Part shown: positions 4,294 through 16,310 of the stretch, in pieces
How positions within the stretch are numbered: position 1 is the first letter of the stretch
How the letters are laid out: each line of letters opens with the position of its first letter
Source: Nitrospirillum viridazoti CBAmc
GTDB taxonomy: Bacteria > Pseudomonadota > Alphaproteobacteria > Azospirillales > Azospirillaceae
Reading direction: 5' to 3'
Assembly (NCBI RefSeq): GCF_000730165.1
Contig: NZ_CP022110.1
Span: 2,487,501 to 2,551,500, forward strand
Length of the DNA stretch: 64,000 bases
Position numbers and translations under genes: made by a program
The notes under the pieces: model-generated
The model's input: only the letters and a program-made list of their open reading frames with translations
Told to the model about the DNA's origin: nothing
The model's database searches: none

Positions 4294-4296
4294 GGA

Positions 4297-4554: not shown

Positions 4555-5120
4555 GCCCCACCCCCGGCGGGCTGGACGGCGGGGTGGAATTCCCCTCGGC
4601 TGTAGACCATGGGCACGCTCTTGTTGGACCAGCACCACAGGTCCACCTCCGCACCGCGCTCACCGTTGGCGGCAAGCTCGAATTCCTCCGGGTACTCCTG
4701 CACCAAGGTGGTGGGGTCCTCGCAGAGGGAGTCGGGATCGTTCGTCAGGCACACCAGGGTGACGGCGCCCGGCACAGTCGGCACCTGTTCGCCATGGCTG
4801 GCGAGGGTCCATCGGCCGTCGCCGGCGACCAGGAGGGTGTCCGCGCCGAAGGAGTGGGTCCAACTGAACTTCACCACCATGCCATCGGTCAGGATGGTGA
4901 TGGCGGATGGGTCTTCGTCGGCCAGGCGCAGAAGGGCGCTGGGCAGGCCTTCGGGCGTATCCAGGTCGCCGTCCAGATCGTTGGGGATCAGTGCGCACCG
5001 GCCGTCCGGCAGTTGCACGATCCAGTCGGACGGTTGCCGAAGCGGGTCGGGGATCGTCTCGTCCAGATAGTCGGAGGGAAGCCACCGGACGTCGACGCCG
5101 GCGGGGGGCATGGCGCTCAT
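4551..5120 (-). CDS. Hypothetical acidic protein
   Basis: About 189 residues from the ATG at 5120, chosen because it overlaps the upstream XRE gene's stop in an ATGA junction. The protein is acidic, rich in Asp/Glu, Pro and Trp, with alternating beta-like segments (WIVQLPDGRCALIPNDLDG; GDGRWTLASHGEQVP). There is no signal peptide or membrane span and no recognised domain. The C-terminus ends in a Pro/Gly tail that overlaps the start of the lipoprotein gene by four bases. Confidence 0.6.
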   Translation of the reverse strand: MSAMPPAGVDVRWLPSDYLDETIPDPLRQPSDWIVQLPDGRCALIPNDLDGDLDTPEGLPSALLRLADEDPSAITILTDGMVVKFSWTHSFGADTLLVAGDGRWTLASHGEQVPTVPGAVTLVCLTNDPDSLCEDPTTLVQEYPEEFELAANGERGAEVDLWCWSNKSVPMVYSRGEFHPAVQPAGGGA

Positions 5121-5356
5121 GGGCGCGGTTCCTTTTTGGGCTTGGTGGGGCGGGGCTTCAAGACGAGGTCCATGTCCAGCGCCTCCGCCCACTTCACGAA
5201 GCGGGGTAGTTCCGGGAAGGTGTGGCCGCCTTCGATTAGCGACATGGCGGCCCGGGTTATGCCGATGCGTCGCGCCACCTCGGCCTGCGACAAGCCCAGC
5301 ACTTCGCGGCGGGCGCGCAGCTGGGCCATCAGGCGAAGAAGGGCGACGGCGGCCAT
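5117..5356 (-). CDS. Small XRE-family HTH regulator
   Basis: A 79-residue protein. LRARREVLGLSQAEVARRIG followed by ITRAAMSLIEGGHTFPELP is a standard XRE/Cro helix-turn-helix, with the recognition helix at TRAAMSLIE. A basic PKKEPRP tail follows. It lies four bases downstream of a second XRE gene and overlaps the next gene, so it belongs to the same leftward operon. It may be an antirepressor-type or Cro-like protein. Confidence 0.75.
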   Translation of the reverse strand: MAAVALLRLMAQLRARREVLGLSQAEVARRIGITRAAMSLIEGGHTFPELPRFVKWAEALDMDLVLKPRPTKPKKEPRP

Positions 5357-5360
5357 GGGA

Positions 5361-5768
5361 TCAGGCGGCCAGGTCGGTGGCGGTGCTGGTCACGGCGTTG
5401 GCGGAACGCAGCAGGGCCTTGCCGGCGTCCAGCATGTAGTCTTGCAGGTTGGGCGGCAGCTGGTTGTAGACGCGGGCAATCTCCAGCGATCCGCGGAACC
5501 GGTCGAAGCCGTCAGAGGGCGGCGTCGCCGTGTCAAAGCCATCCATGAAAAACGACACCGGGACGTCTAGGACGCGGGACAACTGCCACAGCATCGACGC
5601 GGAAACGCGGTTGGCGCCCTTCTCGTATTTCTGCACCTGTTGGAAGGCGACGCCGATGGCCTCGCCCATCTTTTCCTGGGACATGCCCATGAGGGTCCGG
5701 CGGATGCGGATGCGGCTGCCGATGTGCTGATCAAGGGCCAGGCTGGCCAGTTTCGTCTTACGGGTCAC
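5361..5768 (-). CDS. XRE-family transcriptional regulator
   Basis: A 135-residue protein. Residues 14-70 contain an HTH typical of a widespread alphaproteobacterial XRE group: IGSRIRIRRTLMGMSQEKMG, GVAFQQVQKYEKGANRVS, then SRVLDVPVSFFMDG. There is no S24 peptidase domain, so it is not a LexA/CI cleavable repressor. A 7-bp-arm palindrome lies 43 bp upstream of its start (5811-5827) and may be its own operator. The downstream XRE gene follows after four bases. Confidence 0.8.
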   Translation of the reverse strand: MTRKTKLASLALDQHIGSRIRIRRTLMGMSQEKMGEAIGVAFQQVQKYEKGANRVSASMLWQLSRVLDVPVSFFMDGFDTATPPSDGFDRFRGSLEIARVYNQLPPNLQDYMLDAGKALLRSANAVTSTATDLAA

Positions 5769-5810
5769 GGTGTCCTCTACGTTGAAAAAAGGGTGAGTTG
5801 GGGCGTTGGC

Positions 5811-5827
5811 GCCGAACGGTGTTCGGC
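5811..5827. promoter_or_regulatory. Operator-like inverted repeat upstream of XRE gene
   Basis: Perfect palindrome GCCGAAC-GGT-GTTCGGC in the 90-bp gap ahead of the XRE gene that starts at 5768. It is a plausible binding site for that regulator. It could also be a weak hairpin at the end of the upstream gene. Confidence 0.4.
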
Positions 5828-5858
5828 GGCCTGGTGAAATCGGACGGTGGTGTTGGGG

Positions 5859-6176
5859 TCAGTCGCCGGCCAGCTTGGCGGCCTTCACGCGGTCGGCGGC
5901 GGCCTTGTTGGCGGCCCGCCGTTCCCTGTCCTCGCGTGCCATCTGGCGCAGCAGGCGCGACAGCATCGTGAGGGCGCTTCCGCGCCTGTTGGCGATCCAG
6001 TCATAGGCGGCGTCGAAGATGGCTAGGCCGCGTTCCTTCCGGCGGGCGTTCCACGACTTGCGGCAGAAGTCGGAACAAAAGTTCTGGTCATGCCGGACGC
6101 GGGTATAATCGCCGCCGCACTCCAGGCATTCCGCCGGCGGCGCCTCCGGGCCCCGGTTGTGGCCGCGCTGGGTCAT
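5859..6176 (-). CDS. Small zinc-binding phage protein
   Basis: A 105-residue protein. Cys17-LE-Cys20 and, after a short loop, FCSDFCRKSWNARR (Cys34 and Cys38) form a probable four-Cys zinc site. A long basic helix follows (residues 50-105, many Arg/Lys/Ala), suggesting nucleic-acid binding. Its ATG at 6176 overlaps the stop of the upstream gene by four bases. No defined family beyond a phage zinc-finger-like protein. Confidence 0.65.
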   Translation of the reverse strand: MTQRGHNRGPEAPPAECLECGGDYTRVRHDQNFCSDFCRKSWNARRKERGLAIFDAAYDWIANRRGSALTMLSRLLRQMAREDRERRAANKAAADRVKAAKLAGD

Positions 6177-6775
6177 GCCGCGCCCCGCGCCCTGGCGGCC
6201 TCCCGCGCGCGTGTCGCTTCGATTTCCTGAAGCTGGCGGAAGCGCAGTTCGAAGGCCTCAGCTGCCACGGCGGGGTGAACAGCCGGCGTCAACTTCAGGG
6301 TGGAGGGCGGCCCCAGGTCGCTCGGCGGTTCGCCGTGGTACAGGTCGCGGAATTCCGTTGCCAGGGCGGCGCCCTGCGCTTCGGCCATGATGCGCTGGTC
6401 ATCAAGGCTAAGCGGCCAGTCCAGGCCGAAGCGCCGGCTGACGATGATGAGGAAGGGGGCGGCCAGAGCGTCGAACGGGTCGCTTCCGCCCGACCGGAAG
6501 GCCAGTTGCAGCACCGCCGCCCGCGTCGCCGGCGGGGTGTAGCCCAGGTAGGCGTCTGCGCAATGGGCCAGCATCGCAGGAAGGCGCAAGCGCTGCGGCA
6601 CGATCCGCGATAGCAGGACGGACCGCTGTGCCGTGCACCATCCGTTGAAGGGCGGGCGGCTGACCTGCGACAGGGCGTTGGCGAGGTGCCGAAGCGTGGC
6701 GGGCGCGTCCGAAAGCACGGGCGTCAGGATGCTGACGGCACCGCCGAAGGCGGGGCGGGCGGTTGGGGCGATCAC
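6173..6775 (-). CDS. Hypothetical phage early protein
   Basis: About 200 residues from a GTG at 6775 that overlaps the upstream TGA (GTGA junction); the open frame upstream of it reads as a shadow. The core looks alpha-helical: APATLRHLANALSQVS, then LRLPAMLAHCADAYLGYTPP, with an Arg/Ala-rich coiled C-terminus (RQLQEIEATRAREAARARG). The pattern of small helical blocks recalls phage accessory replication or antirepressor proteins, but no motif is diagnostic. Overlaps the zinc-binding gene downstream by four bases. Confidence 0.55.
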   Translation of the reverse strand: MIAPTARPAFGGAVSILTPVLSDAPATLRHLANALSQVSRPPFNGWCTAQRSVLLSRIVPQRLRLPAMLAHCADAYLGYTPPATRAAVLQLAFRSGGSDPFDALAAPFLIIVSRRFGLDWPLSLDDQRIMAEAQGAALATEFRDLYHGEPPSDLGPPSTLKLTPAVHPAVAAEAFELRFRQLQEIEATRAREAARARGAA

Positions 6776-6903
6776 GGCAGTTTCTCCAGCAGGATGATTG
6801 CGGCCGGAGCGATCAGCGTCACGATGGCGCCCCAACCCATCGGGGACAGGAAGCGCAGCGCGACAGTGTGGCGCCGAAGCCGGCGGCGGAGGCGGTGGGT
6901 CAT
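6772..6903 (-). CDS. Tiny membrane protein
   Basis: A 43-residue protein starting MTHRLRRRLRRHTVALRFLS at 6903, overlapping the upstream stop by four bases. The basic N-terminus is followed by one hydrophobic helix, WGAIVTLIAPAAIILLEKLP, so an inner-membrane peptide with its N-terminus in the cytoplasm is likely. Function unknown. Confidence 0.5.
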   Translation of the reverse strand: MTHRLRRRLRRHTVALRFLSPMGWGAIVTLIAPAAIILLEKLP

Positions 6904-7073
6904 GGCTGGCCGCCGGCGTTGGTGAGGGTGGCGAGGATGGCCACCACCAGGCACAGCAGCGACTGAAGGACGGCCCATCCGCTGGCCAGGTCCCAAGCGT
7001 TCGAACGCTTTGTCCCTAAGCTGCCTCTCAGGTGTGTGGGCTTCATGCTGAGATCGGTTGTCTTCGCGCTCAT
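6900..7073 (-). CDS. Small single-span membrane protein, first gene of leftward operon
   Basis: A 57-residue protein from the ATG at 7073, which has a GGAG ribosome-binding site seven bases ahead; a TTG at 7085 is the alternative. A polar N-terminus is followed by one membrane span, AVLQSLLCLVVAILATLTN. One of the nine 16-bp palindromes (6995-7010) lies inside the gene and encodes KRSNA in this frame. This appears to be the promoter-proximal gene of the leftward operon, which runs to 930. Confidence 0.55.
   Translation of the reverse strand: MSAKTTDLSMKPTHLRGSLGTKRSNAWDLASGWAVLQSLLCLVVAILATLTNAGGQP
6995..7010. repeat. 16-bp palindrome, copy 1
   Basis: Perfect AAGCGTTCGAACGCTT inside the small leftward membrane gene, about 60 bp from its start codon. 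This is the isolated copy; the other eight lie 5-7.6 kb to the right. Confidence 0.9.
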
Positions 7074-7107
7074 TCTGATCTCCAAATGCGAGTGCGATGC
7101 CCCTCAC

Positions 7108-7126
7108 AATTCCAATAACTGGAATT
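7108..7126. promoter_or_regulatory. Operator candidate in divergent early promoter region
   Basis: Perfect inverted repeat AATTCCA-ATAAC-TGGAATT between the leftward operon (start 7073) and the rightward XRE gene (start 7321). A second TTCCGGAA palindrome lies at 7152-7159 in an AT-rich stretch. Spacing and position fit operators controlling the divergent promoters. Confidence 0.5.
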
Positions 7127-7320
7127 ATGACGCAAGCGAAAAAAGCTCAATTTCCGGAATTTTTATCGCCCAGCGCGGGTAGGCGGCGGTGCCCACGGGG
7201 TGCCTTGGGGTTCCCGCTGGGCTCCTTGTCGCTTGATTTTTAATGAAATAATCCCAATAAGGATGTTACATCCTCATCAGGTCGTGGTCGGTGTTGGGCG
7301 CCGTCGCCATCATCGCGCGC

Positions 7321-7674
7321 ATGGCACAGCATGGTCGCAACAACATCAAAATCGAACGGGAACGGCGCGGCTTGACGCAGGAGGCCTTGGCCGCCCTGAC
7401 GCGCTGTGGGCCTTCGACCATTCAGAAGCTGGAGGCCGGTCGCATCCCGCTCACGCTGATCTGGATGCAGCGGATTGCCGCCGCGCTGGGCTGTACCGCC
7501 CGTGATCTAATCCCTGAAGAAGAGCCAACCGCCGTGCGTGTGGCGCGGCCCTACGCCGACAAGGCGCGTCTCATCGCAACTGTGCTTGAACATGGCGAAC
7601 TGCGCGCCGCTCTGGAAATTGTGAAGGGCTTGGAAGTCGAATTGGCGGCGGCGCTGTCCGGGGCAGACCAGTAG
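7321..7674 (+). CDS. XRE-family HTH regulator
   Basis: A 117-residue protein from the ATG at 7321. Residues 6-60 hold a canonical HTH: IKIERERRGLTQEALAALTR, then GPSTIQKLEAGRIP and a third block around QRIAAALGCTARDLIPE. The C-terminal half is helical, probably for dimerisation, without a peptidase domain. It is divergent from the leftward operon, with palindromes between them, and so is a candidate regulator of both. An upstream in-frame ATG at 7291 is possible but less well placed. Confidence 0.8.
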   Translation: MAQHGRNNIKIERERRGLTQEALAALTRCGPSTIQKLEAGRIPLTLIWMQRIAAALGCTARDLIPEEEPTAVRVARPYADKARLIATVLEHGELRAALEIVKGLEVELAAALSGADQ

Positions 7675-7973
7675 GGCGAGGTGCCGTTTCGCTGCGCGTC
7701 GAGTCGGAGTCTGCGCACATGGCGGCAGCACAATGATCAACTTCCTGTTAACGCCAGTTAAACGACGGCGAGCCTTCCTAATAGGATTGCCAGTGTGGCG
7801 AGTGGTCGCGTCAAGTGTGGTTTGACGAATACGCCCGGTTGCCTACGGACGTAGTTTTCTAGCCTTTCGAGGTGTCTTTTCGCTAGCAGACCTCCCGATT
7901 GGGCATATACCGTTCGCGGTCTGCGCGGTGCCACGAATGCGCCGTAGCTGGACCGTAGGGCAGTGGAGCCGTG

Positions 7974-8324
7974 ATGAGCGTTGAGGTTTTGTCGTTGAAG
8001 ACGCAGATTGCCGCGAATCTTCTGGGCGCCGTCCAAGTAAAGATCGGCGAAGCGCTCTATTGCGCTCAGGTCGTCTCAAATTGCACTGAAACCATAGTTG
8101 GAGCCGAATGCTCCCATCTGTTTTTCCCTGATGGCGACGTGCGTACTATAGGTGCTTCAATTGCTGTAAGTGGGACTATTAAGATTTTGTACCGAGGGTG
8201 CAGTTACGTGCTGTCGGCGCTCCTCCTGGAAGCGTGCCCTTACGCCCTTGTGTTGGGCAGTAAGGCTCAGGCGTCCTTGGCCATATCTGCAAGTCGCAAT
8301 CGGGCGGCAAGCAAATCTGCGTAG
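7974..8324 (+). CDS. Hypothetical protein (uncertain)
   Basis: About 116 residues from the ATG at 7974, preceded directly by a GTG at 7971. Amino-acid composition is normal, with beta-like stretches (GASIAVSGTIKILYRG; SYVLSALLLEACPYALVLG). Its 3' end overlaps the convergent repressor gene by 58 bp, which is unusual, and the last 20 residues read like a shadow. No family recognised. It might be a genuine accessory gene with a distal overlap. Confidence 0.4.
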   Translation: MSVEVLSLKTQIAANLLGAVQVKIGEALYCAQVVSNCTETIVGAECSHLFFPDGDVRTIGASIAVSGTIKILYRGCSYVLSALLLEACPYALVLGSKAQASLAISASRNRAASKSA

Positions 8325-8773
8325 ATCGCCGCCATGGCATAATGGCCCTTGCGGATAAGGTTCCCCATTTCCCGGTGCAGTTCTTGAAGGCCCGTGCTTT
8401 CGCTGACGGGTAGAACTGGCATGCCAAATACATGGGCCTGCGTGGCGCCCTCGGGGGCCTGGCCAGTATCTTCACCGTCCCCAAGTAACAGCCAGGCTGC
8501 CGATACATTTAACTTCGGGGCGAATCGCTGCGCCAACTCAGTATCAATGGTGCTGCGGCCAGCTTCATAGTGCGCATATGTTGTGTAAGGCATGCCAATG
8601 ACGTGCGCGAATTGCTTCGCGGTGTTGTACAGCCTAGCGCGCGCGGTCTTTAGCCTGCTCGCCGGCTCAGCCTTTGCAGCATCGAGATTGTCCTGGGTCA
8701 TGGCGACCATCTTATGCATGTCGACGCCATCGGCAACGATCTTGAATTCCGATTTTAAGAATTGTCTTGACAT
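8267..8773 (-). CDS. CI-like phage repressor (HTH, no peptidase domain)
   Basis: About 168 residues from the ATG at 8773. The N-terminal part is polar. The HTH lies around residues 45-85: LYNTAKQFAHVIGMPYTTYA, then HYEAGRSTIDTELAQRFAPK followed by LNVSAAWLLLGDGEDTG, the typical end of a CI/HTH_3 domain. The C-terminal 60 residues are helical and there is no S24 catalytic Ser-Lys pair. It is the last of three close leftward genes, opposite the rightward early operon that begins at 9290. This is the usual place of a lysogeny repressor. Alternative start at a downstream ATG (MTQDNLDAAK). Confidence 0.75.
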   Translation of the reverse strand: MSRQFLKSEFKIVADGVDMHKMVAMTQDNLDAAKAEPASRLKTARARLYNTAKQFAHVIGMPYTTYAHYEAGRSTIDTELAQRFAPKLNVSAAWLLLGDGEDTGQAPEGATQAHVFGMPVLPVSESTGLQELHREMGNLIRKGHYAMAAIYADLLAARLRLADMAKDA

Positions 8774-8784
8774 AGAAATTCCAT

Positions 8785-9006
8785 TTAACGAGATTTTCCA
8801 GCCATGAATATCTCGGCTGAAATCTCCGCTGCTTTCACGGCGCGCCTGACGCTCACTGTCGCTGACGGTGCGCGCCTGGGCGGCGGCGATGGTGGGGCGC
8901 GCACGATGTCGGACCATTCTTCGATATCGATGCGCGCCCCGATGACTTCCCCTGGCGCCCCGCCAATTGGCGTCGCCCCATCTTCCCCCACTTTTTCCGG
9001 CGGCAT
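8785..9006 (-). CDS. Small hypothetical protein upstream of repressor
   Basis: About 73 residues from the ATG at 9006, which follows the stop of the next upstream minus-strand frame by one base (TAGGATG). The sequence is Pro/Ala-rich, with a central acidic stretch (GARIDIEEWSDIVRAPP) and a helical end (VRRAVKAAEISAEIF). It ends 11 bp before the repressor start. Weakly supported: length and composition are compatible with a gene, but a competing plus-strand frame exists. Confidence 0.4.
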   Translation of the reverse strand: MPPEKVGEDGATPIGGAPGEVIGARIDIEEWSDIVRAPPSPPPRRAPSATVSVRRAVKAAEISAEIFMAGKSR

Positions 9007-9007
9007 C

Positions 9008-9196
9008 CTAGATGTGCGCGATGCGGGAGTCGAGGCGGGTCTGATCGCCATTTGCGGGCGTGCCGCTTGCGCTGTCCGGCCTGTGGCTGTCGTGCCTCGT
9101 GCGCGCCGCGTCGGCTATCGCCTGCGCGCGCAACACCAGCTGGGCCATGGGGTCGGCGGGCATCTGCCGCGCCAGGTCAGCGAGTTGGTCAATCAT
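9008..9196 (-). CDS. Small hypothetical protein, start of repressor operon
   Basis: About 62 residues from the ATG at 9196; an alternative ATG at 9295 would overlap the divergent gene's start. The N-terminal half is a regular helix (IDQLADLARQMPADPMAQL, then LRAQAIADAAR). It is tightly coupled to the downstream frame. Its position next to the divergent early promoter at about 9290 makes a small regulator possible. Confidence is low. Confidence 0.35.
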   Translation of the reverse strand: MIDQLADLARQMPADPMAQLVLRAQAIADAARTRHDSHRPDSASGTPANGDQTRLDSRIAHI

Positions 9197-9289
9197 CAGT
9201 TCGTCGTCATCAGGCAGGGTGCGGAAGCGGCCAGCACCCTGGCGGAACAGGGAATGGCCGCACCCCAACGCTACTAAGAGGCGTGCGCC

Positions 9290-10273
9290 ATGCATACGCG
9301 CCCGAACTATCAGGCCAGCCCCGGCGGCCTATCACTGGCCGAAGCGGGTGACCGTGCCGCGCGATATGTGCGCGGTCTGTGGCCCCGGGATACCGCCAAG
9401 CACCTCCAGCGCGAGTTGGGCATTAGCTCGGCCGGCGCCAACCGCATGATCGCCGGGCGGATGTCCAAGGACATGCTGGTCGCCGCCATCAGCGCGTGGG
9501 GTTGGCCCTTCATTGAATTCGTCTATGCCCCCGACGGTCGTGTTGACCGCGCGGGCATGGACTTCGCCTTGAACGCCGTTGCCGCCCAGGCGGAGGCGCT
9601 TGCTTCTGAATTGTCGGAGATGTCCCGTGCCCACCGTCCCTACCCCGCTGCGCACTCCCGAGGAACTGGAGCGCGAGGCGGATACCTTCCAGATGAATTT
9701 GACGCGGATGTCTGCCCAGATGACGGCGGAGATCAGGCGGGGCATGGACCTGCTGGCGCAGATGCGCGCGGCGGCGGACAGGGCGCGGCAGGCATCTTCA
9801 GCATCGCTCACGCCGCCGGCCGGGCTCTTGAACTGAACGAAGCGTTGCCGCTGGAGGGCGATGCGCTCGACCCCCGGCACGCCCTGGTGCTGGACGCCCA
9901 CCGCCAGTCCGGCGGGCGCATCAGCCCCGAACTGTTCGGGATGCTGGACGATCTGGGCGTCAACGGCCTGACCAGCATCTATGACCCGTCCGTCCGCGTC
10001 GTCAGCATCGGCGGCGGCATCGACTTCTGGGACCAATCGCGCCGCCAGGGTGTGGCGGGTCAGTCCCTGATGGCCCTGCCTGGACCCCGCGACTATCTGG
10101 CGGCGGCACACAACGCCCTGACCGATGCAGCGGGCGGTCCGCAGCACCACCGCATGCGGGTGGTGGCGGATGGCAACGTCGCCGTCTTCAGGCGCCTCGC
10201 CTTGGACTTCCCCGGCTCGGCCCTGCGGCTGGGCATCACCGTCGTGGAAAGCATTGAACATGCATCACTATGA
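9290..10273 (+). CDS. Large composite ORF: HTH-like N-terminus, PAS-like C-terminus
   Basis: A 327-codon open frame from the ATG at 9290, preceded by AAGAGGCG. Residues 1-110 look like a Cro-type DNA-binding protein: TAKHLQRELGISSAGANRMI resembles an HTH. Residues about 185-325 look like a second domain (LTSIYDPSVRVVSIGGGIDF, FRRLALDFPGSALRLGITVV), loosely PAS-like. The middle (residues 113-170, Gly/Asp/Ala-rich) reads like a shadow of the overlapping gene at 9627-9836. Either the long protein is real with a second gene nested inside, or two genes were joined by loss of a stop. First gene of the rightward early operon. Confidence 0.5.
   Translation: MHTRPNYQASPGGLSLAEAGDRAARYVRGLWPRDTAKHLQRELGISSAGANRMIAGRMSKDMLVAAISAWGWPFIEFVYAPDGRVDRAGMDFALNAVAAQAEALASELSEMSRAHRPYPAAHSRGTGARGGYLPDEFDADVCPDDGGDQAGHGPAGADARGGGQGAAGIFSIAHAAGRALELNEALPLEGDALDPRHALVLDAHRQSGGRISPELFGMLDDLGVNGLTSIYDPSVRVVSIGGGIDFWDQSRRQGVAGQSLMALPGPRDYLAAAHNALTDAAGGPQHHRMRVVADGNVAVFRRLALDFPGSALRLGITVVESIEHASL
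9627..9836 (+). CDS. Overlapping small helical protein
   Basis: About 69 residues from a GTG at 9627, with CGGAG upstream. The sequence has the composition of a real coiled protein: TPEELEREADTFQMNLTRMS, then AQMTAEIRRGMDLLAQMRAA. It lies completely within the longer frame at 9290-10273, but its amino acids are far more protein-like than those of the other frame here. It could be a small phage regulator similar in size to other early genes in the operon. Confidence 0.5.
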   Translation: MPTVPTPLRTPEELEREADTFQMNLTRMSAQMTAEIRRGMDLLAQMRAAADRARQASSASLTPPAGLLN

Positions 10274-10973
10274 CGCCCAGGCGGTGCAGCGTGCGGCCGT
10301 GGCGGCTGTCGCGGCTGCCAATCTGACTGTCGTGGTCGACAGCGACTTCGACGTGCTGGCGGCCTACAACAAGGCGGCGCCACCGTCCTGGTACCCCATC
10401 ATCCCGCTGTATGATCCCGAGCTTGATCCGCCGGACCCGGGCACCGCCCTGGTGGTGCGCGCGGTGGATGCGACGGGCGAGACGCGGGCCTGCATCGCCG
10501 CCCGCCTGCGCCATGTGCCCAACGGGCTGGGTGTGGCCATGGCCGACGGGACGTTCATGTTTGGCGCCAGCCCACCCCGGGAGTGTCAAGTGATGCTTGA
10601 CGCTGATGGGCTGGGCGGGATCGCGGGTTTCGTGGCCATCCCCGGCGGGATGTACGTGCACCCGGACGTTCGGCACCGCGACTTGGCCTATCATCTCTAC
10701 ACCGTCCTGGCGGCGGAGATGTATGGCCGGTGGCACCCGGATTGGGTGGTTGGCTTCGTGGCGCCCAAGCGCACCGTCATGCTGGGGTACGACGTGTACC
10801 GGATGCGGACGGCCCTGGGGTACATGACCGTGACGGACCCCCGGTGGCCCTACGGCGACGGGGCGAAGTTCGTCATCCTGGCGTGTAGCTTGGCCGACCT
10901 GCGCCGCCGCTATCTGCGCGTTGCGCCCGGGGTGGTGGATGAGCTTCCCGCGCTCGCCGTGGCGGCGGAGTGA
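10260..10973 (+). CDS. Putative GNAT-like phage protein
   Basis: A 237-residue protein from the ATG at 10260, overlapping the previous stop by 14 bp. The central block GIAGFVAIPGGMYVHPDVRH, then RDLAYHLYTVLAAEMYGRW, is reminiscent of the N-acyltransferase (GNAT) V-x-P-x-x-R/H-x-x-x-h-x-x-x-L arrangement. The segment before it is beta-rich. The classical Q/R-x-x-G-x-G/A motif A is not clear, so the assignment is tentative. It lies between the composite regulator ORF and the GcrA-like gene in the rightward early operon. Confidence 0.55.
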   Translation: MHHYDAQAVQRAAVAAVAAANLTVVVDSDFDVLAAYNKAAPPSWYPIIPLYDPELDPPDPGTALVVRAVDATGETRACIAARLRHVPNGLGVAMADGTFMFGASPPRECQVMLDADGLGGIAGFVAIPGGMYVHPDVRHRDLAYHLYTVLAAEMYGRWHPDWVVGFVAPKRTVMLGYDVYRMRTALGYMTVTDPRWPYGDGAKFVILACSLADLRRRYLRVAPGVVDELPALAVAAE

Positions 10974-10979
10974 CGCGCC

Positions 10980-11459
10980 ATGCCGGACGCCCTGATGCCG
11001 GCGGCGCTGCGGCAGCCGGACGGCCTGCGCAAGCGGGTGCTGGATGCTATCGTCGCCTCTATCGCGGCCGGTGACCGGTCGCCCCGGAACCTTGTGTTGG
11101 CCCAGGCGGCTTTCTGCGCCGAAACCACGGTCACCGAGGCCCTGCGCCGGCTGCGCAAGGCCCGGTTCCTGATCATCCATTACGATTGGGTCGACAGGCG
11201 CCAGGTCCGCACCTTTTATCTGCCCGGTGAGGGGGTGGAGGACACCGGCACTGTGGCGCGGCCTTCCATCCGCCGCGCGATCCTGCGCCACCGGGTGGAG
11301 GCGTCCCGCTTACCGGCCAGCCTGGGGTGTCAGTACCTGTTGGGCGAGCCGCGCGACCGCGAGTTCTGCGGCCAGCCCCGTCAGGGGCATAGCCCCTACT
11401 GCCCCGACCATCACGCCCGGTGCTATGTGCCGGCCCCGCCGCTGGACAAACTGCTGTGA
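10980..11459 (+). CDS. Winged-helix protein with GcrA-like C-terminal zinc motif
   Basis: A 159-residue protein. Residues 15-80 look like a winged-helix DNA-binding domain (FCAETTVTEALRRLRKARFL). The C-terminal 45 residues contain CQYLLGEPRDREFCGQP and SPYCPDHHARCYVP. The spacing of Cys117, Cys130, Cys141 and His144 and the wording resemble the conserved C-terminal motif of GcrA, the CcrM/GANTC-linked cell-cycle regulator of alphaproteobacteria. A phage protein combining both parts could divert host transcription. It is translationally coupled to the next gene by a GTGA overlap. Confidence 0.7.
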   Translation: MPDALMPAALRQPDGLRKRVLDAIVASIAAGDRSPRNLVLAQAAFCAETTVTEALRRLRKARFLIIHYDWVDRRQVRTFYLPGEGVEDTGTVARPSIRRAILRHRVEASRLPASLGCQYLLGEPRDREFCGQPRQGHSPYCPDHHARCYVPAPPLDKLL

Positions 11460-11761
11460 GGGTGCCCGCGCCGGAAGACCGGTTGATCGCCGCCGCGTGC
11501 CTGCACCTGGCGGGCGGGCGGCCCCAGCGGTTTCAGGAAGCCATTGATGCCGTGCCCCAGGGCCTGGGGCCGCTGGTGGACGACGTCCTGTCGGCGGCCC
11601 GGGCGGTGCTGGCGGACGACACGCGGGAAACCCGCGCCCGCCTGCGCAAGACGGTGGATGCCCTGTCGGAAGTGCTGGTCTGGCGGCGGGACATCGGGCG
11701 CCAGGCCCGAAAAGACAAGCTGCGGCACTTCACCGGGGCCGCCAAGCGGAGGAAGCGTTGA
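11456..11761 (+). CDS. Hypothetical early protein
   Basis: About 101 residues from a GTG at 11456 that overlaps the previous stop (GTGA). Helical: APEDRLIAAACLHLAGGRPQ, then AIDAVPQGLGPLVDDVLSAA, and a strongly basic C-terminus (RRDIGRQARKDKLRHFTG, RRKR). A basic tail suggests contact with nucleic acid. Its stop overlaps the next start (TGATG). No family recognised. Confidence 0.55.
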   Translation: MRVPAPEDRLIAAACLHLAGGRPQRFQEAIDAVPQGLGPLVDDVLSAARAVLADDTRETRARLRKTVDALSEVLVWRRDIGRQARKDKLRHFTGAAKRRKR

Positions 11762-12006
11762 TGTCGCGTGGTCCCCGTCCCCCTCGTTCCAACCTGGCGT
11801 TCGCCGCCAGCAGCCGCAGGCCCGTGGATGAGGTGAAGCGCGCCGGCTGGCGCGAAACCGGCACCCTGGCCGTCTCGGTGCATGACGCGCGCCTGAACGA
11901 CTTCGAGCGCCAGTTCCTGGTGAATGTCGGGGTGAAGCTGTATGGCGCGTCACCGGCGGTGAAGCGTTCGAACGCTTCATCCCCGGACGACTTGGCGGGC
12001 GTGTGA
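11761..12006 (+). CDS. Hypothetical early protein carrying palindrome copy 2
   Basis: An 81-residue protein from the ATG at 11761. It contains WRETGTLAVSVHDARLNDFE followed by RQFLVNVGVKLYG, a short mixed alpha/beta segment. The palindrome at 11962-11977 is read as KRSNA near the C-terminus. Coupled to the upstream gene by a TGATG overlap. Downstream lies copy 3 of the palindrome and then convergent genes, so this probably ends the first block of the rightward operon. Confidence 0.55.
   Translation: MSRGPRPPRSNLAFAASSRRPVDEVKRAGWRETGTLAVSVHDARLNDFERQFLVNVGVKLYGASPAVKRSNASSPDDLAGV
11962..11977. repeat. 16-bp palindrome, copy 2
   Basis: Perfect AAGCGTTCGAACGCTT, extended to 18 bp by flanking G and C. 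Lies in coding sequence, 66 bp before copy 3. Confidence 0.9.
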
Positions 12007-12027
12007 TGGCCCGAGCCGCTGGCATGG

Positions 12028-12043
12028 AAGTGTTCGAACGCTT
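12028..12043. repeat. 16-bp palindrome, copy 3
   Basis: AAGTGTTCGAACGCTT, one mismatch from the consensus, flanked by G and C. Intergenic, between convergent genes ending at 12006 and 12054. Its centre is exactly 480 bp before copy 4. Confidence 0.85.
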
Positions 12044-12053
12044 CCGGGGCGCG

Positions 12054-12380
12054 TCAGCCGCACCGCGCGCCTGCAGGAAGCCAAAACCATATCTGGTTCC
12101 AAGCCAGGTGGTGGTGCGCGAGCGACGTCAGCCAGCCAACCAGCGGCGCAAAGAGGGCCATACCCATCCCGTTAGGGATGTCCAGAAAAAGGGTGGCGTA
12201 TACCAAGGTGGGCAGGACGCCGAACAGGATGGCGGCGTGTTGGGGCTGGCCATAGGTGACCTGGGCCGAGCAGTGTTCACAGGCGGATGCGCCATAGGCC
12301 GACACCCCACCGCACCAGGGGCACAGGATATTGTCGGGTCGAACATAGCCCGGCTTCCGGTAGGCTGGTTCCATAAACAT
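12054..12380 (-). CDS. Zinc-ribbon membrane protein A
   Basis: A 108-residue protein. Cys20-PW-Cys23 and Cys34-EH-Cys37 form a zinc ribbon with ten residues between the pairs, followed by AQVTYGQ. The rest is hydrophobic, with two or three membrane spans (ILFGVLPTLVYATLFLDIP; LFAPLVGWLTSLAHHHLAW). It resembles the neighbouring gene at 12537-12857 in ribbon spacing, the YGQ motif and layout, though the sequences are far apart. Each is preceded by a copy of the 16-bp palindrome about 135 bp upstream. Function unknown; small ribbon-membrane proteins of this type occur as accessory genes. Confidence 0.65.
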   Translation of the reverse strand: MFMEPAYRKPGYVRPDNILCPWCGGVSAYGASACEHCSAQVTYGQPQHAAILFGVLPTLVYATLFLDIPNGMGMALFAPLVGWLTSLAHHHLAWNQIWFWLPAGARCG

Positions 12381-12507
12381 GGCGGCTGGTCCCTATGCGC
12401 TGTGTGGCTGCTGGGGACAGCAAAGCACCGTGTTCGGCCCTCCCGCCAGCCGCATTATCGTCAGCCGCGTGCACGAAAACGTCATCCCGCCGGCGACAGG
12501 GAAGCCG

Positions 12508-12523
12508 AAGCGTTCGAACGCTT
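12508..12523. repeat. 16-bp palindrome, copy 4
   Basis: Perfect consensus, palindromic over 20 bp (12506-12525). Intergenic, about 135 bp upstream of the zinc-ribbon gene that starts at 12380. Exactly 480 bp from copies 3 and 5. Confidence 0.9.
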
Positions 12524-12536
12524 CGAGGTTGCGGCG

Positions 12537-12857
12537 CTATTTGACAGGGATGAAGCGCACGCGGTCGATGGTCAGGTAGAGGTGGGCGGTTGCGACGACG
12601 AAGCCACTGGCTGCCACCAAGCCGGCCGCTACGTAGCATGCAATTTCATTGTGGAGGTTGATGCAGGACGTCTGGTGCAGCAGGAAGGTCAGGGCCGCAG
12701 CCCCTATCCAGCCGACCTTGAAGCACGTCATCGCTTCCTCATCGGACTGCCCATATTCGACGGGGGCGCGGCAGCCTCGGCAGAAACGTACGCCATAGCG
12801 GGATGTGGTCAGGCAGTTGGTGCAGTTGATCCAGCGGGAAAAGGGCGCGGTGCTCAT
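12537..12857 (-). CDS. Zinc-ribbon membrane protein B
   Basis: A 106-residue protein. Cys12-TN-Cys15 and Cys26-RG-Cys29, again with ten residues between the pairs, form a zinc ribbon followed by APVEYGQ. Two hydrophobic spans follow (VGWIGAAALTFLLHQTS; ACYVAAGLVAASGFVVATAH). It appears to be a diverged paralogue of the gene at 12054-12380 and lies in the same orientation. It is preceded by palindrome copy 5 about 138 bp upstream. Base composition is intermediate between the phage core and the low-GC accessory genes. Confidence 0.65.
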   Translation of the reverse strand: MSTAPFSRWINCTNCLTTSRYGVRFCRGCRAPVEYGQSDEEAMTCFKVGWIGAAALTFLLHQTSCINLHNEIACYVAAGLVAASGFVVATAHLYLTIDRVRFIPVK

Positions 12858-12987
12858 GGGCGGGCGATCCCTCGTGATGGTGTCCGGTACTCCCTGATTA
12901 AATACGTAGGCATTAAGGCTGCCTACCTGTGGTTTTTCCCAGGTGCGGCTTGGTTGGCATGCTCAACCGTTGGTCAAGGGCCTGAGA

Positions 12988-13003
12988 AAGCGTTCGAACG
13001 CTT
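12988..13003. repeat. 16-bp palindrome, copy 5
   Basis: Perfect consensus in the gap between the antitoxin gene and zinc-ribbon gene B, about 138 bp upstream of the latter's start. Exactly 480 bp after copy 4. Confidence 0.9.
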
Positions 13004-13058
13004 CGGCCTGGATTGGACAGCAAAAAGGGCGGGCCGGTTACCCGGTCCCGCCCTTTCC

Positions 13059-13358
13059 TCATGCTTTGGCGTGCCTAATTGTGAAGCTCAGGTTCAGTGC
13101 CTGCAATATCCGCAGGATCGTATCGAACCCGGTCTTGGTCTCTGGCGACAGCGCCTTGTACAGGGTTCCTCGCGGCATATCCGCGATCTGTGCCAATTCG
13201 GTCATGCCTTTTGCGCGTGCTACATCCTGAAGTGCGACACGAAACAGTTGCGGATCACCTTCTTCTATTGCGGCATTCAGAAATTCAGCAACATCTTCGT
13301 CAGTTTCCAGGAAATCAGCAGCGTCAAATTTTCTCCATTCGCTCGTGTTGTTGCTCAT
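13059..13358 (-). CDS. HigA-like antitoxin (addiction-module antidote)
   Basis: About 99 residues from the ATG at 13358 (MSNNTSEWRKFDAADFLE). The sequence follows the probable addiction-module antidote pattern: a short acidic lead, EDVAEFLNAAIEEGDPQLFR, then VARAKGMTELAQIADMPRG and TLYKALSPETKTGFDTI, which is the HTH. Such antitoxins bind the cognate HigB/RelE-type toxin and repress the operon. It follows the toxin gene on the same strand after about 180 bp, longer than usual. An alternative upstream start at 13409 would shorten this gap. Confidence 0.85.
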   Translation of the reverse strand: MSNNTSEWRKFDAADFLETDEDVAEFLNAAIEEGDPQLFRVALQDVARAKGMTELAQIADMPRGTLYKALSPETKTGFDTILRILQALNLSFTIRHAKA

Positions 13359-13535
13359 TACGGACACTCCATCTCTCATTTGTTCTGCGGGGATACCCAT
13401 TTTTTTCATACTGCTTTAATTAATATCCACTATCATTTTACTCTATCGACTTTGTTCATTGGTCATCCAAAAAGCTTTACTCACCGTATCTGGGGTGGGC
13501 GCCCTTGCCTGAACAGGGGCGCCCTCCGAGATTGG

Positions 13536-13862
13536 TCAACGCATGTCGTTGAAGCGGGCTCTTGCCACCGTGATGTCTCGACTTTGGGTCGATTTTTCGC
13601 CCCCACCGAGAATGATGTATGTCCGTTTTCCTTGCCGCCCATAGTACACGCGGTAGCCGGGTCCGGACATAATGCGCATCTCGCTGACGCCGTCGCCAAC
13701 GGGTTCGCAGTCGCCAAAATTTCCAAGACGGGCTCGGATGAGCCTGATGGAAATCCGTTGACGAGCTTGCTTATCCTTAAGCGTCCGAAGCCAGTCTTCA
13801 AAGGCCGGATGCATGATCAGCTCGTTTTCATCTTCTACCTCTTCCATGGTGGGCTTCCCCAT
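13536..13862 (-). CDS. HigB/RelE-type toxin (addiction-module killer)
   Basis: A 108-residue protein; the ATG at 13862 or at 13847 may be used. The core reads FEDWLRTLKDKQARQRISIR, then GNFGDCEPVGDGVSEMRI and GPGYRVYYGRQGKRTYIILG, the pattern of RelE-superfamily toxins of the HigB killer group. In this fold the basic residues and the final beta strands form the mRNA-cleaving ribosome-dependent site. The toxin precedes the antitoxin, as in higBA loci. A promoter with an overlapping inverted repeat lies at 13881-13910. Confidence 0.85.
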   Translation of the reverse strand: MGKPTMEEVEDENELIMHPAFEDWLRTLKDKQARQRISIRLIRARLGNFGDCEPVGDGVSEMRIMSGPGYRVYYGRQGKRTYIILGGGEKSTQSRDITVARARFNDMR

Positions 13863-13880
13863 CTAGTTGATGACGTAAGT

Positions 13881-13910
13881 CTTGTACACTGTAGTGGACA
13901 GTATTGTCAA
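13881..13910 (-). promoter_or_regulatory. Promoter with overlapping operator for toxin-antitoxin operon
   Basis: On the minus strand, TTGACA (13905-13910) is followed after 18 bases by TACAAG (13881-13886). The spacer contains the inverted repeat ACTGT-CCACT-ACAGT (13888-13902). This fits an autoregulated toxin-antitoxin promoter bound by the HTH antitoxin. Confidence 0.55.
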
Positions 13911-13987
13911 GACGGAACGTCAACCCCGGTTGACGCCTCCGGTCAAGCGCGCCCCTCGAGAAGTTTAGCGGGTAGGAAGGCCAGGCC

Positions 13988-14218
13988 ATGTCTCCGCCGC
14001 TGATGGATATGAGCCTGGAGGGCCTGGCCCTAGACATCCGCTCGACGCTGGCCGTGTGGGTGGCGGAGGGGCTGTCCTACGCCGAGATGTGCGCCGTGCT
14101 GGCGGTCCAGCCGCGCGCCGGCCTGGATACCATGGGGCACCTGGCCAGCGTAATGACGTGCGGTCTGTTGCTGGGTTCGAAGCGTTCGAACGCTCCGGGG
14201 CTGGTGCCAGATGGCTAA
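13988..14218 (+). CDS. Small hypothetical early protein with palindrome copy 6
   Basis: A 76-residue protein starting MSPPLMDMSLEGLALDIRST, with GTAGGAAGG upstream as a ribosome-binding site. Helical (VAEGLSYAEMCAVLAVQP), possibly a small DNA-binding or adaptor protein; SYAEMCAVL could be part of an HTH. The palindrome at 14180-14195 encodes KRSNA near the end. Resumes the rightward early operon after the leftward accessory block. Confidence 0.55.
   Translation: MSPPLMDMSLEGLALDIRSTLAVWVAEGLSYAEMCAVLAVQPRAGLDTMGHLASVMTCGLLLGSKRSNAPGLVPDG
14180..14195. repeat. 16-bp palindrome, copy 6
   Basis: AAGCGTTCGAACGCTC, one mismatch at the last base. Lies in the 3' part of a small early gene. Confidence 0.85.
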
Positions 14219-14441
14219 GGGCGCGGCCACCGGCAGGCCGCCACCCACCCTCCACCCGTGTGACGCGGTGGGCTGCTGGGAATGGGGTCCGTTCGGGCAG
14301 GGCGTATTCCTGCGCGGCGGCGGCGTCGCCCGCTGGTGGTGCCGCCGGCATCTGCCTGCGGACTATTGGGATCACCAGGTGGCGAAGGCCAAAGGGCCGG
14401 CCCCTGGGCACGGGCCGCTGGGCCAGGGGGCGTTGTTCTGA
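14211..14441 (+). CDS. Small zinc-binding early protein
   Basis: A 76-residue protein overlapping the previous gene by eight bases. It contains HPCDAVGCWEWGPFGQG and ARWWCRRHLPADYW. His/Cys pairs (CDAVGC, then WCRRH) make a compact zinc site likely. This arrangement is frequent in small phage proteins of unknown role that sit next to replication genes. Its stop overlaps the next start (TGATG). Confidence 0.6.
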   Translation: MAKGAATGRPPPTLHPCDAVGCWEWGPFGQGVFLRGGGVARWWCRRHLPADYWDHQVAKAKGPAPGHGPLGQGALF

Positions 14442-14665
14442 TGGCGGATGATCATGAGGTGTCCGGCACGCGGGCGCTGCTGACCTTGGCTGAGTGGATG
14501 GGGCTGGCGGCAAGCGTTCGAACGTTTCCGGTCGACCCGGGGAGCGTCCCCGTGTTCGCCCCAGCGCCCGAAGCGTTCGAACGCTTCGGTGGCGAGATGA
14601 ATTGGAAGGGGTGCCTGAAGCGTTCGAACGCTTCGGCGCGGCATGGCGAGGTGCGGGATGTCTAG
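14441..14665 (+). CDS. 74-residue protein containing three palindrome copies
   Basis: Starts at the ATG at 14441 (MADDHEVSGTRALLTLAEWM). Three of the nine 16-bp palindromes lie inside (14512, 14571, 14618). They are translated as ASVRTF, EAFERFG and LKRSNAS, so three different reading frames of the palindrome are used in one short gene. About a fifth of the protein is therefore dictated by the DNA repeat. The N-terminal helix RALLTLAEWMGLAA is the most protein-like part. It overlaps the replication gene by eight bases. Function unknown; it may mainly be a carrier of the sites. Confidence 0.5.
   Translation: MADDHEVSGTRALLTLAEWMGLAASVRTFPVDPGSVPVFAPAPEAFERFGGEMNWKGCLKRSNASARHGEVRDV
14512..14527. 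repeat. 16-bp palindrome, copy 7
   Basis: AAGCGTTCGAACGTTT, one mismatch in the right arm. Encodes SVRTF in the overlapping gene. 59 bp from copy 8. Confidence 0.85.
14571..14586. repeat. 16-bp palindrome, copy 8
   Basis: Perfect consensus, palindromic over 20 bp (14569-14588). Encodes EAFERF in the overlapping gene. 47 bp from copy 9. Confidence 0.9.
14618..14633. repeat. 16-bp palindrome, copy 9
   Basis: Perfect consensus, flanked by G and C. Encodes LKRSNAS in the overlapping gene. Last copy, 25 bp before the replication-protein gene begins. Confidence 0.9.
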
Positions 14666-15455
14666 GGCTGGGAAGCCGCTGGTGGTGAGTATGTGTCCGG
14701 CCCTGCTGCTGGCGGAGGCCGAGGATATGGACGCGGCCCTGGAATTGACCTTCCTGCGCCTGGTCCACCATTGCCTGGCGGCGGGGGGCGAGGTGCCGGA
14801 CCGCGACGACGCCCTAGCGCGGAAGACCAAGGCGGGCAACCGATGGAAGCGGCACAAGGCGGAGTTGATCGCACAGGGCTTGGTGGAGGTGGCGGGCGGT
14901 GTGCTGGCCATCACCCCGGGGCGGGGCGGGACGTCCCGTCAGCGCCCAAAACACCCCGGAAAACAGGGCGGAAAAGCCGGAGAAAACAGGCCGGAAAACG
15001 TCCCGGAAAAGTGGGCGGAAAACCCACCAGAAAACACCCCGGAAAAGTCCCCGGAAATCTCAGAGAAAAGTGGCCGGTTTTTTGAGGATAAGTCGTTGGA
15101 AGGAAAGGAAAAGATGGGGCAAAACAGTGCCGATTTGGCGGACGGAACCGCAGGGAAGTCCGATTTCCCCCCCTATGATCTTAATAACCCCCCCTTTAAT
15201 TCCCCAAAAATTCAAAAGGGGTTTAGCGGGGCAGATATCGCCCAATTGCGGCGCCGTGCCGACCTATTGGCCAGCGGAAGTGCGGCGGCAAAGTCGCAGG
15301 CTGCGCTGTGGCCGCCGGGCGAAATCGTGGCGATGGTCCAGGCTGGTTTCGTCGGCGCCGACGTGGTGCTGCGGCTGGGGTTCGACCTGCCGGCGGCCCT
15401 GGTGCCCGTGGCTGGCGGGGTTGGGCTTGGCAGGGGGGCTGCTGGCCATGGCTGA
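14658..15455 (+). CDS. Replication-initiator-like protein (DUF1376-like)
   Basis: About 265 residues from the ATG at 14658. Residues 15-95 resemble the DUF1376 / phage replication-protein winged-helix domain: ALELTFLRLVHHCLAAGGEV, then DALARKTKAGNRWKRHKAEL and GLVEVAGGVLAI. The middle (about residues 95-140) is a low-complexity linker rich in PEN/PEK repeats. The C-terminal part (IAQLRRRADLLASGSAAAKS) is helical. This layout parallels lambda O: DNA-binding N-terminus, origin repeats in the middle of the gene, helicase-contacting C-terminus. The assignment as the phage replication gene fits its place at the end of the early operon. Confidence 0.65.
   Translation: MSRAGKPLVVSMCPALLLAEAEDMDAALELTFLRLVHHCLAAGGEVPDRDDALARKTKAGNRWKRHKAELIAQGLVEVAGGVLAITPGRGGTSRQRPKHPGKQGGKAGENRPENVPEKWAENPPENTPEKSPEISEKSGRFFEDKSLEGKEKMGQNSADLADGTAGKSDFPPYDLNNPPFNSPKIQKGFSGADIAQLRRRADLLASGSAAAKSQAALWPPGEIVAMVQAGFVGADVVLRLGFDLPAALVPVAGGVGLGRGAAGHG
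14955..15075 (+). repeat. Iteron-like GGAAAA repeats, candidate origin
   Basis: About nine irregular copies of a CCGGAAAA/GCGGAAAA-type unit, spaced about 12-15 bp, inside the replication-protein gene. An unusually AT-rich stretch follows at 15178-15215. The repeats encode the PEN/PEK linker. By analogy with the lambda origin inside gene O this may be the phage origin; the spacing is irregular, so this is inference. Confidence 0.45.
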
Positions 15456-15666
15456 GTCCAGGAAGCCCGCGACCGGCGCGGATCGCCGCCGGCAGAGGCG
15501 TGACGACGCCATCGCCCAGAAGCCCTGCCCGACGTGTGGGGTGGCGGAGGGGCAGCGGTGCGTCGGTGGCCGTGGTCAGCAGCGGACCAGCATCCACCAG
15601 GGCCGATGGGCCAAGCCGCCCCGCCAGCCTGGGGTGGCCGTTGCTGGGCTTGGCAGGGGGGCCTGA
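15448..15666 (+). CDS. Small zinc-binding protein
   Basis: A 72-residue protein from the ATG at 15448, overlapping the previous stop. It is basic at the N-terminus (DRRRQRRDDAI), then QKPCPTCGVAEGQRCVGG and HQGRWAKPP. The C-P-x-C-x(3)-G-x-x-C-x(n)-H pattern is common in small phage zinc proteins. Its stop overlaps the next start (TGATG). Role unknown, probably nucleic-acid contact. Confidence 0.6.
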   Translation: MAESRKPATGADRRRQRRDDAIAQKPCPTCGVAEGQRCVGGRGQQRTSIHQGRWAKPPRQPGVAVAGLGRGA

Positions 15667-16310
15667 TGGTGACCGAAGTGCCGGAAATCGATATCGAGGC
15701 ACTGTTGGTCTGGGTCTACCAGCGCCAACGGGCGGACCTGGTGGTTGACCGTGGGGTTGGGCTCCACGAGCTGGAGCGCGAGGCGGCGGGCATCCCGGTG
15801 ACCCGCCGCACGGCGGACGGTACGGGCAGCAGCATCGCGGTGCTGGGCTGCCGGGTCGACAACAGCGGCACCCCGTCGGGCGTCCTACACCCCGATGCGG
15901 AGGCCGTCCACGACGCCGTGTGCCGGGCGCCGCGTCCGCTGTGGACGGGCTTGCTGATCGAGGTGGGACGGACGGGGGAGCGGCCGGATTGGCTGCCGGG
16001 CGCCCGGGTCGAGGAACAGGCCATCCTGCACCGGGGCAAGGTGGTGTTCGTGGTGGACGATGACGGCTGCATCGTCGGGCCCAAGGTGCGAACGGTCCTG
16101 GTCCGCGACGAAGTCGGCCCCGATGGGCGGGTGCGTCAAGTGACGCTTGACAGGTCCCCGGCCGCGCTGGAGTTGGGCCGCCGGGTCTACGCGGAATGGC
16201 GGGCCGCCTTGGCGTGGCTGGTCGACGAACTGGTGTCCCGCCAGCTGCTGGCCAGCCACCGGGTGACAGGGCCGGCGGCGCCGGACGAGCCGTGGGTGAG
16301 CGTGCTCTAG
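15666..16310 (+). CDS. Hypothetical protein, last gene of rightward early operon
   Basis: A 214-residue protein from the ATG at 15666. Soluble, with an acidic N-terminus (EVPEIDIEALLVWVYQRQRA), a beta-rich centre (GKVVFVVDDDGCIVGPKVRT) and a helical C-terminus (LELGRRVYAEWRAALAWLVD). It might be a late regulator or antitermination-like protein given its position before the late genes, but no motif supports this directly. It is followed by a hairpin and a convergent lipoprotein gene. Confidence 0.6.
   Translation: MVTEVPEIDIEALLVWVYQRQRADLVVDRGVGLHELEREAAGIPVTRRTADGTGSSIAVLGCRVDNSGTPSGVLHPDAEAVHDAVCRAPRPLWTGLLIEVGRTGERPDWLPGARVEEQAILHRGKVVFVVDDDGCIVGPKVRTVLVRDEVGPDGRVRQVTLDRSPAALELGRRVYAEWRAALAWLVDELVSRQLLASHRVTGPAAPDEPWVSVL

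Follow-up and report, generated by a model that had tools for sequence, protein, structure and literature searches.

What is the role of a perfect palindrome repeated nine times within the early region of a prophage? The question is raised by a 64,000-nucleotide stretch of the soil bacterium Nitrospirillum viridazoti CBAmc (contig NZ_CP022110.1, positions 2,487,501 to 2,551,500), hereafter called the window, in which nine copies of the 16-bp palindrome AAGCGTTCGAACGCTT are dispersed over positions 6995 to 14633. An initial sequence-only reading of the window had cited the stoperators of mycobacteriophage L5 as a precedent, with partition sites or recombination elements as further options and the XRE proteins as possible binders. 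In the analysis reported here, the copies are found to be real, confined to the prophage, symmetric, conserved in a divergent prophage and kept at the DNA level, and none is located in the immunity control region. They are best explained, with a probability that we put at roughly 0.6, as dispersed binding sites on double-stranded DNA for a predicted dimeric DNA-binding protein encoded by the phage, with a probable silencing or coating role.

Distribution and conservation of the palindrome

The nine coordinates given by the sequence-only reading were all found to be exact, six copies being perfect and three carrying one mismatch (Table 1). Its estimate of a chance expectation far below one was borne out as well: at up to three mismatches, 0.23 matches are expected per 64 kb as compared to the nine observed, and none of 100 shuffles attained nine. 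No additional match was found in the window even when four mismatches were allowed. Chance or base composition is ruled out as the origin of the copies by these figures. Confinement to the prophage holds across the 7.38-Mb genome (four contigs), where the nine prophage copies are the only sequences to match with at most one mismatch, two extra matches displaying two mismatches each. The motif is therefore not equally frequent across the host chromosome, and a host regulon is ruled out.

A related prophage does conserve the motif. Six copies with at most one mismatch, five of them exact, are carried by two contigs of Azospirillum sp. B4 (G063), at positions 14300, 14349 and 15060 of locus L035 (contig C390) and 2019, 8012 and 8742 of locus L036 (contig C697). 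The proteins of the two prophages are about 30-63% identical, with values of 63% for the terminase, 37% for the portal protein, 46% for the product of 9290-10273 and 54% for that of 10260-10973. In our reading of the gene order, the regions that carry copies correspond (the beginning of the left operon, the cargo region and the stretch directly before the 14643-15455 gene); the exact positions differ. For instance, the copy in gene 13988-14218 lies near the 3' end, while a gene of L035 that resembles it by eye has its copy near the 5' end.

Alignment of the 15 sites (nine from the window and six from G063) reveals an identical central GTTCGAAC in all of them and only four changed letters, all located at outer positions. 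The 16-mer is a perfect palindrome, centre included. Conservation extends weakly by one base on each side, to the 18-mer G-AAGCGTTCGAACGCTT-C; 21 of 30 half-sites have the fitting outer base.

Wider searches returned few further occurrences. The exact 16-mer is present in three of 82 genomes of the family (six copies in the genome itself, five in G063 and one in G061), and the search at order level took in the same 82 genomes. Across the genus (seven genomes), matches with two mismatches are single and scattered, at a low background level; the six found in G063 sit singly on contigs other than the prophage contigs. Among viral contigs, the exact 16-mer occurs in 18 stretches, with several copies only in the window's own record and that of Azospirillum sp. 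B4. Scanning the genome collection for the 18-mer returned 68 stretches; with copies counted from up to 8 kb of DNA per stretch, two exact copies were found only in Azospirillum sp. B4, and locus L096 carries one exact copy and one with two mismatches.

The gene context of the copies is given in Table 1. The three copies within the 75-codon gene 14441-14668 fall in three different reading frames, which indicates that conservation acts on the DNA rather than on the peptide. According to a hand-curated gene set and without a formal enrichment test, seven of the 15 sites are intergenic, and five of these seven lie 10, 13, 13, 13 and 17 bp beyond a stop codon. The copy at 12028, counted as intergenic, would be covered by an alternative plus-strand open reading frame (ORF) starting at 12003. 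The copies are clustered in the window, with a coefficient of variation (CV) of 1.6 for the gaps.

Table 1. Palindrome copies, regulator genes and cargo genes of the window (positions counted from its first letter)
Feature	Position	Strand	Context
Copy 1, perfect	6995-7010		Inside 6900-7046 (-), first small gene of left operon
Copy 2, perfect	11962-11977		Close to 3' end of gene 11761-12006
Copy 3, C4T	12028-12043		Intergenic; 10 bp beyond stop of opposite-strand 12054-12380
Copy 4, perfect	12508-12523		Intergenic; 13 bp beyond stop of opposite-strand 12537-12857
Copy 5, perfect	12988-13003		Intergenic; 55 bp beyond stop of opposite-strand toxin-antitoxin pair
Copy 6, T16C	14180-14195		Close to 3' end of gene 13988-14218
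Copy 7, C14T	14512-14527		Small gene 14441-14668, first of three reading frames
Copy 8, perfect	14571-14586		Small gene 14441-14668, second reading frame
Copy 9, perfect	14618-14633		Small gene 14441-14668, third reading frame
27-bp inverted repeat TCACAATTCCA-ataac-TGGAATTATGA, one mismatch	7104-7130		Candidate immunity/early operator, located between XRE gene and left operon
Small XRE regulator	7291-7674	+	Homologues in G062 and G063
XRE repressor-like protein	8267-8773	-	Homologue in G062
Helix-turn-helix (HTH)-like N-terminal helices, weakly PAS-like C-terminus (low-confidence model)	9290-10273	+	Near right-operon start; G063 homologue; candidate binder
Sub-threshold GntR-type HTH and GcrA-like Cys/His matches	10980-11459	+	G063 homologue; lesser candidate
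Cargo gene with hydrophobic stretches and, by eye, Zn-ribbon-like paired CxxC motifs	12054-12380	-	Flanked by copies 3 and 4
Cargo gene, similar layout (by eye)	12537-12857	-	Flanked by copies 4 and 5
RelE/ParE-type toxin (13536-13862) and HI1420-type antitoxin (13059-13409)	13059-13862	-	Opposite-strand cargo

A block of opposite-strand cargo genes (12054-13862) is bordered by palindrome copies, and two consecutive copy-to-copy intervals (12028/12508/12988) measure exactly 480 bp each. In L035, a two-gene opposite-strand cassette (14413-15046) lies between the copies at 14349 and 15060; we take it by eye to be BrnT/BrnA-like, and NCBIfam gave no match for it. Elsewhere in the window, a phage PAPS-reductase-like gene (phrog_424) is located at 1457-2602, near the left prophage end, and a tyrosine integrase gene (49026-50078), which probably lies close to the right end, follows the structural genes.

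The immunity region and candidate binders

The sequence-only reading had named the repressor encoded at 8267-8773, and the XRE proteins in general, as possible binders. The former is not supported: no copy of the 16-mer is present over 7011-11961, an interval that takes in both XRE genes and the beginning of the right operon, and a different operator-like palindrome lies at 7104-7130. The same holds for L036, where no copy is found at 2035-8011, the site of the regulator genes, and where GGCAATATACTGCGATA-like sequences occur at 6028, 7457 and 7489, on both sides of these genes. The latter sequences differ among themselves by three to four mismatches per 17 and are distinct from the 16-mer. 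The dispersed 16-mer and the probable immunity operator are therefore separate elements, and the binder is probably not a canonical repressor acting at its promoter operator. Homologues of both XRE proteins are found in the sister prophage G062 (38% identity to 7291-7674 and 32% to 8267-8773), yet its dispersed palindrome is another one.

Among the genes listed in Table 1, the HTH/PAS-like protein of 9290-10273 is our first candidate binder since it is of HTH type and has a homologue in the G063 prophage; the small XRE regulator (7291-7674) or the product of 10980-11459 would come next. The C-terminal Cys/His segment of the latter is weakly similar to GcrA, under the cut-off, and is kept in the G063 prophage. 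The structure model of 9290-10273 is poor, with a mean predicted local distance difference test (pLDDT) score of 51.5 and weak PDB matches (best E value 0.029). Several genes are shared by the window and the G063 contigs without a homologue having been found in the G062 prophage, among them 9290-10273, 10260-10973, 10980-11459, 14643-15455 and 15534-16310. Viral contigs searched with the proteins of 10260-10973 and 9290-10273 yielded the window's own record only.

A different palindrome and an orphan ParB-like protein in sister prophages

The terminases of the window and of G062 group together; the G062 prophage carries the palindrome GCGAACG-N-CGTTCGC. At one mismatch or less, 12 matches are found genome-wide, 10 of them in the prophage region C5:15862-58424, as compared to seven matches for a reversed control pattern in the same genome. 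Twelve sites could be aligned when two mismatches were allowed, and one copy lies inside the terminase gene. The motif occurs at C5:12952-58424 (L179, L183 and L190) and in the viral loci L260-L339, in multiple copies in many phage records. The G062 left operon encodes a 631-aa protein (L179, 7275-9170, minus strand) that matches ParB_N above the curated cut-off and displays a sub-threshold N-terminal HTH; a second HTH, read from the sequence by eye, is presumably KorB-like. Homologues of this protein were found in L277, L312, L330, L333, L280 and G081.

The association between motif and protein was examined in several sets. Among 80 of at least 120 motif-bearing stretches of virus contigs, several copies are present in 18 (16 records); a tblastn search with the G062 ParB matched six of these 18 and none of the 62 others. 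A set of 50 virus records, chosen for carrying the motif, was then composed of the 16 records with several copies and 34 others, picked mainly by length (at least 17 kb; the L336 record, also of this length, was missed), and the whole records were searched with both the motif and a ParB alignment (A7). A match to A7 was obtained in 19 of 23 records with at least three copies, in two of 27 with fewer and in none of 20 with a single copy (Fisher test, 5e-8). When records below 20 kb and the four records used to build the alignment are set aside, the figures become 15 of 18 against one of 21. In 26 stretches of the family located upstream of the terminase and selected without regard to the motif, a strong ParB homologue was found in two, G081 and G027 C37, which are also the sole stretches of the 26 with copies at one mismatch or less. 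Of seven multi-copy sets with complete positions among the matches listed, four are spaced more evenly than random (G466, P 0.0007; G501, 0.0002; G462, 0.0022; G496, 0.026), one is borderline (G495, 0.07) and two are not even (G467, 0.92; G062, 0.11).

Several observations run counter to the ParB link. Four records (G475, G487, G496 and G503) have at least three copies and no A7 match, although they may be fragments, and G496 is evenly spaced all the same. The match in G488 spans profile positions 12-102, mostly the N-terminal HTH, and may not be a ParB; G506 has two ParB matches, yet only two copies; and G057 displays a weak ParB match (E value 0.001) with no motif copy. Separately, Sc-Yong805-1, VarioGold and Aval yielded one remote ParB-like match each; no comparably supported palindrome was found in them, the best log10 p values of -6.7 to -6.8 being at the level of chance matches elsewhere. 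The ParB association in sister phages is the stronger general lead.

It cannot simply be transferred to the 16-mer, since no ParB is detected in the window prophage. ParB_N has no match there or in the two G063 prophage contigs, tblastn with the G062 ParB returned nothing below an E value of 0.1 against the window prophage, and a ParB profile matched none of the window ORFs; a ParB encoded there would have to be very divergent. In L036 the profile retrieved only the small XRE protein (5.5e-6), probably via its N-terminal HTH. A ParB_N gene is present on contig C497 of G063, in a context that looked like a non-phage island. ParB was rejected as the binder in the window phage. The partition-site option of the sequence-only reading thus holds in part: the sister palindrome does track an orphan ParB-like gene, and the window prophage provides no such homologue.

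A palindrome-finding script applied to 48 regions ranked the early region of the window second and that of G063 fourth. Four short stretches (L220, L227, L230 and L238) of 25 upstream stretches were left out of this survey, as well as of the 26-stretch ParB comparison. G062, G081 and G027 C37 share one motif and served as mutual controls, so they were under-called; the G062 motif was seen by other scans and that of G081 and G027 C37 only in the direct ParB/motif comparison. Among the other signals, the CTCGAG-rich one of G034 looks like codon composition, that of G012 host DNA lies inside one very long repeat-rich ORF, and GCGAGCGCTCGC, suspected in G432, proved to be scattered genome-wide, with one of seven exact copies in the stretch.

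Weighing of the explanations and comparison with known systems

If the copies are protein-binding sites, a dimeric phage protein would bind many positions over the early operons and around the opposite-strand cargo genes, and its binding would silence or road-block early transcription, or nucleate a coat on the early region in the lysogen. The analogous but different palindrome of G062 supports this explanation, as the arrangement recurs with an altered specificity. A number of points weigh against it. The 16-mer is common to just two phages in the searched data, one of them known from two contigs alone. The first and third ranks of the palindrome survey (G034; G012 host DNA) were artefacts, so that the ranking alone is no proof. 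The shared candidates show only partial conservation of their HTH regions when the window and G063 phages are compared, and the binder stands at candidate level, by gene presence. Finally, no sigma-70-like promoter was found in 6700-15200, where shuffles expect 1.9, with a scan that may not suit this host; no promoter being recognizable at the copies, the regulatory effect is one that we infer.

The alternatives account for part of these data. The 16-mers are unlikely to serve the immunity repressor (8267-8773 or 7291-7674) as classical operators or as stoperators of the L5 type. XRE repressors are encoded in the prophage, palindromes of 15-17 bp are typical of XRE operators, and in G062 some 20 bp separate the end of one motif copy (19801-19815) from the likely ATG, an assumed start, of its XRE gene. 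The recognition-helix residues ST-x-Q-[KR] are likewise common to the XRE proteins of the window and G063 and not found in G062, although they also match the common consensus of such helices. The copies are nevertheless missing from the regulator-gene regions of both prophages, which contain other palindromes instead, and the stoperator variant was rejected on this ground; in addition, the 16-mer is symmetric and stoperators are not. A role as parS-like loading sites for a clamp of the ParB family is improbable in the window: the co-occurrence in sister prophages and the 50 virus records and the grouping of the terminases speak for it, the lack of any ParB match and the clustering of the copies, as opposed to the even spacing of several sister-type records, against it.

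There is an equally slim chance that the copies are boundary or recombination sequences around cargo cassettes, devoid of binding function. They do border opposite-strand cargo in the window (12028/12508/12988) and in L035 (14349/15060), five intergenic copies closely follow stop codons, and cluster O phages gain or lose genes between such repeats, according to the sections of PMC4351075 considered. Pure recombination homology, however, does not need a palindrome, and several copies lie within genes with no adjoining cassette. RNA hairpins acting in termination, antitermination or stability are very improbable. The 18-mer does fold into a 7-bp stem of -8 kcal/mol, in which a G-U pair survives two of the three different one-letter changes; the central letters, which would form the loop, are invariant in 15 of 15 sites and are better explained by a protein dimer on DNA, and copies also lie inside coding sequence. 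An RNA terminator was rejected, as none of the 11 terminator-like matches in 6700-15200 coincides with a copy.

Binding by a dimeric phage protein thus remains our preferred explanation of the window copies, and a broader proposal may be built upon it, tentatively and with less confidence. In this clade, prophages might tag their own genomes with dispersed palindromes on which a genome-coating or silencing protein is loaded, independently of the immunity repressor and of partition. The sister palindrome GCGAACG-N-CGTTCGC, which often recurs genome-wide at even intervals of a few kb, would load an orphan ParB-like CTPase clamp, and the window and Azospirillum sp. B4 prophages would represent an early-region variant with another site and another loader. 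Orphan ParB proteins of phages and prophages are surveyed in PMC12704722; no cognate site is given in the part of the text considered, and the string 'palindrom' does not occur in the main text. In the open-access literature, none of the sources, as far as their text was covered, links dispersed palindromes with ParB in phages, PMC4351075 mentioning both separately. The association described above joins these two puzzles, dispersed palindromes and orphan ParB proteins, and makes both testable; the window prophage adds a related phage in which the site strategy is retained with a different sequence and without a detected ParB gene.

Comparison with known systems helps to situate the 16-mer. Dispersed operators with known binders, several of them palindromic, exist in phages and plasmids (phiC31 CIRs, P1 c1 operators, RK2 KorB operators). 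Classical CI/Cro operators sit at the regulator genes or divergent early promoters, which is not where the window copies are found, and in ParB-parS systems ParB is encoded on the same element, as in G062 and G081 and unlike in the window prophage. Cluster A stoperators resemble the 16-mer in being numerous and dispersed within a temperate phage and in having motifs that vary among relatives; they are, however, bound by the immunity repressor, lack symmetry and mostly follow the direction of transcription (PMC6550527, in the portions considered), whereas the window sites are symmetric and absent from the early promoter/repressor locus. The L5 precedent put forward by the sequence-only reading is therefore not borne out. 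The 15-bp SPBRE element of SPbeta is a parallel in that it was found in silico long before its binder; it is located in promoter regions, and the binder, MrpR, has a tyrosine-recombinase fold (PMC10516654, in the portions considered). In kind, the window palindrome appears closest to the repeats of the cluster O mycobacteriophages. Those of Corndog, TGTTCGGNNNCCGAACA, are 17 bp long with a 3-bp spacer and occur in 34 copies genome-wide, whereas the window has nine copies without a spacer, restricted to 6995-14633 and different in sequence and spacing; a ParB-like gp90 is also noted in PMC4351075, as opposed to the window prophage, where no ParB homologue was found. Both share dyad symmetry, many near-identical copies, a frequent location between genes or near gene ends, absence from the named host genomes and no clear link to promoters, and the cluster O repeats, whose function is given as unknown, have likewise been suggested to be binding sites for dimeric proteins (PMC4351075).

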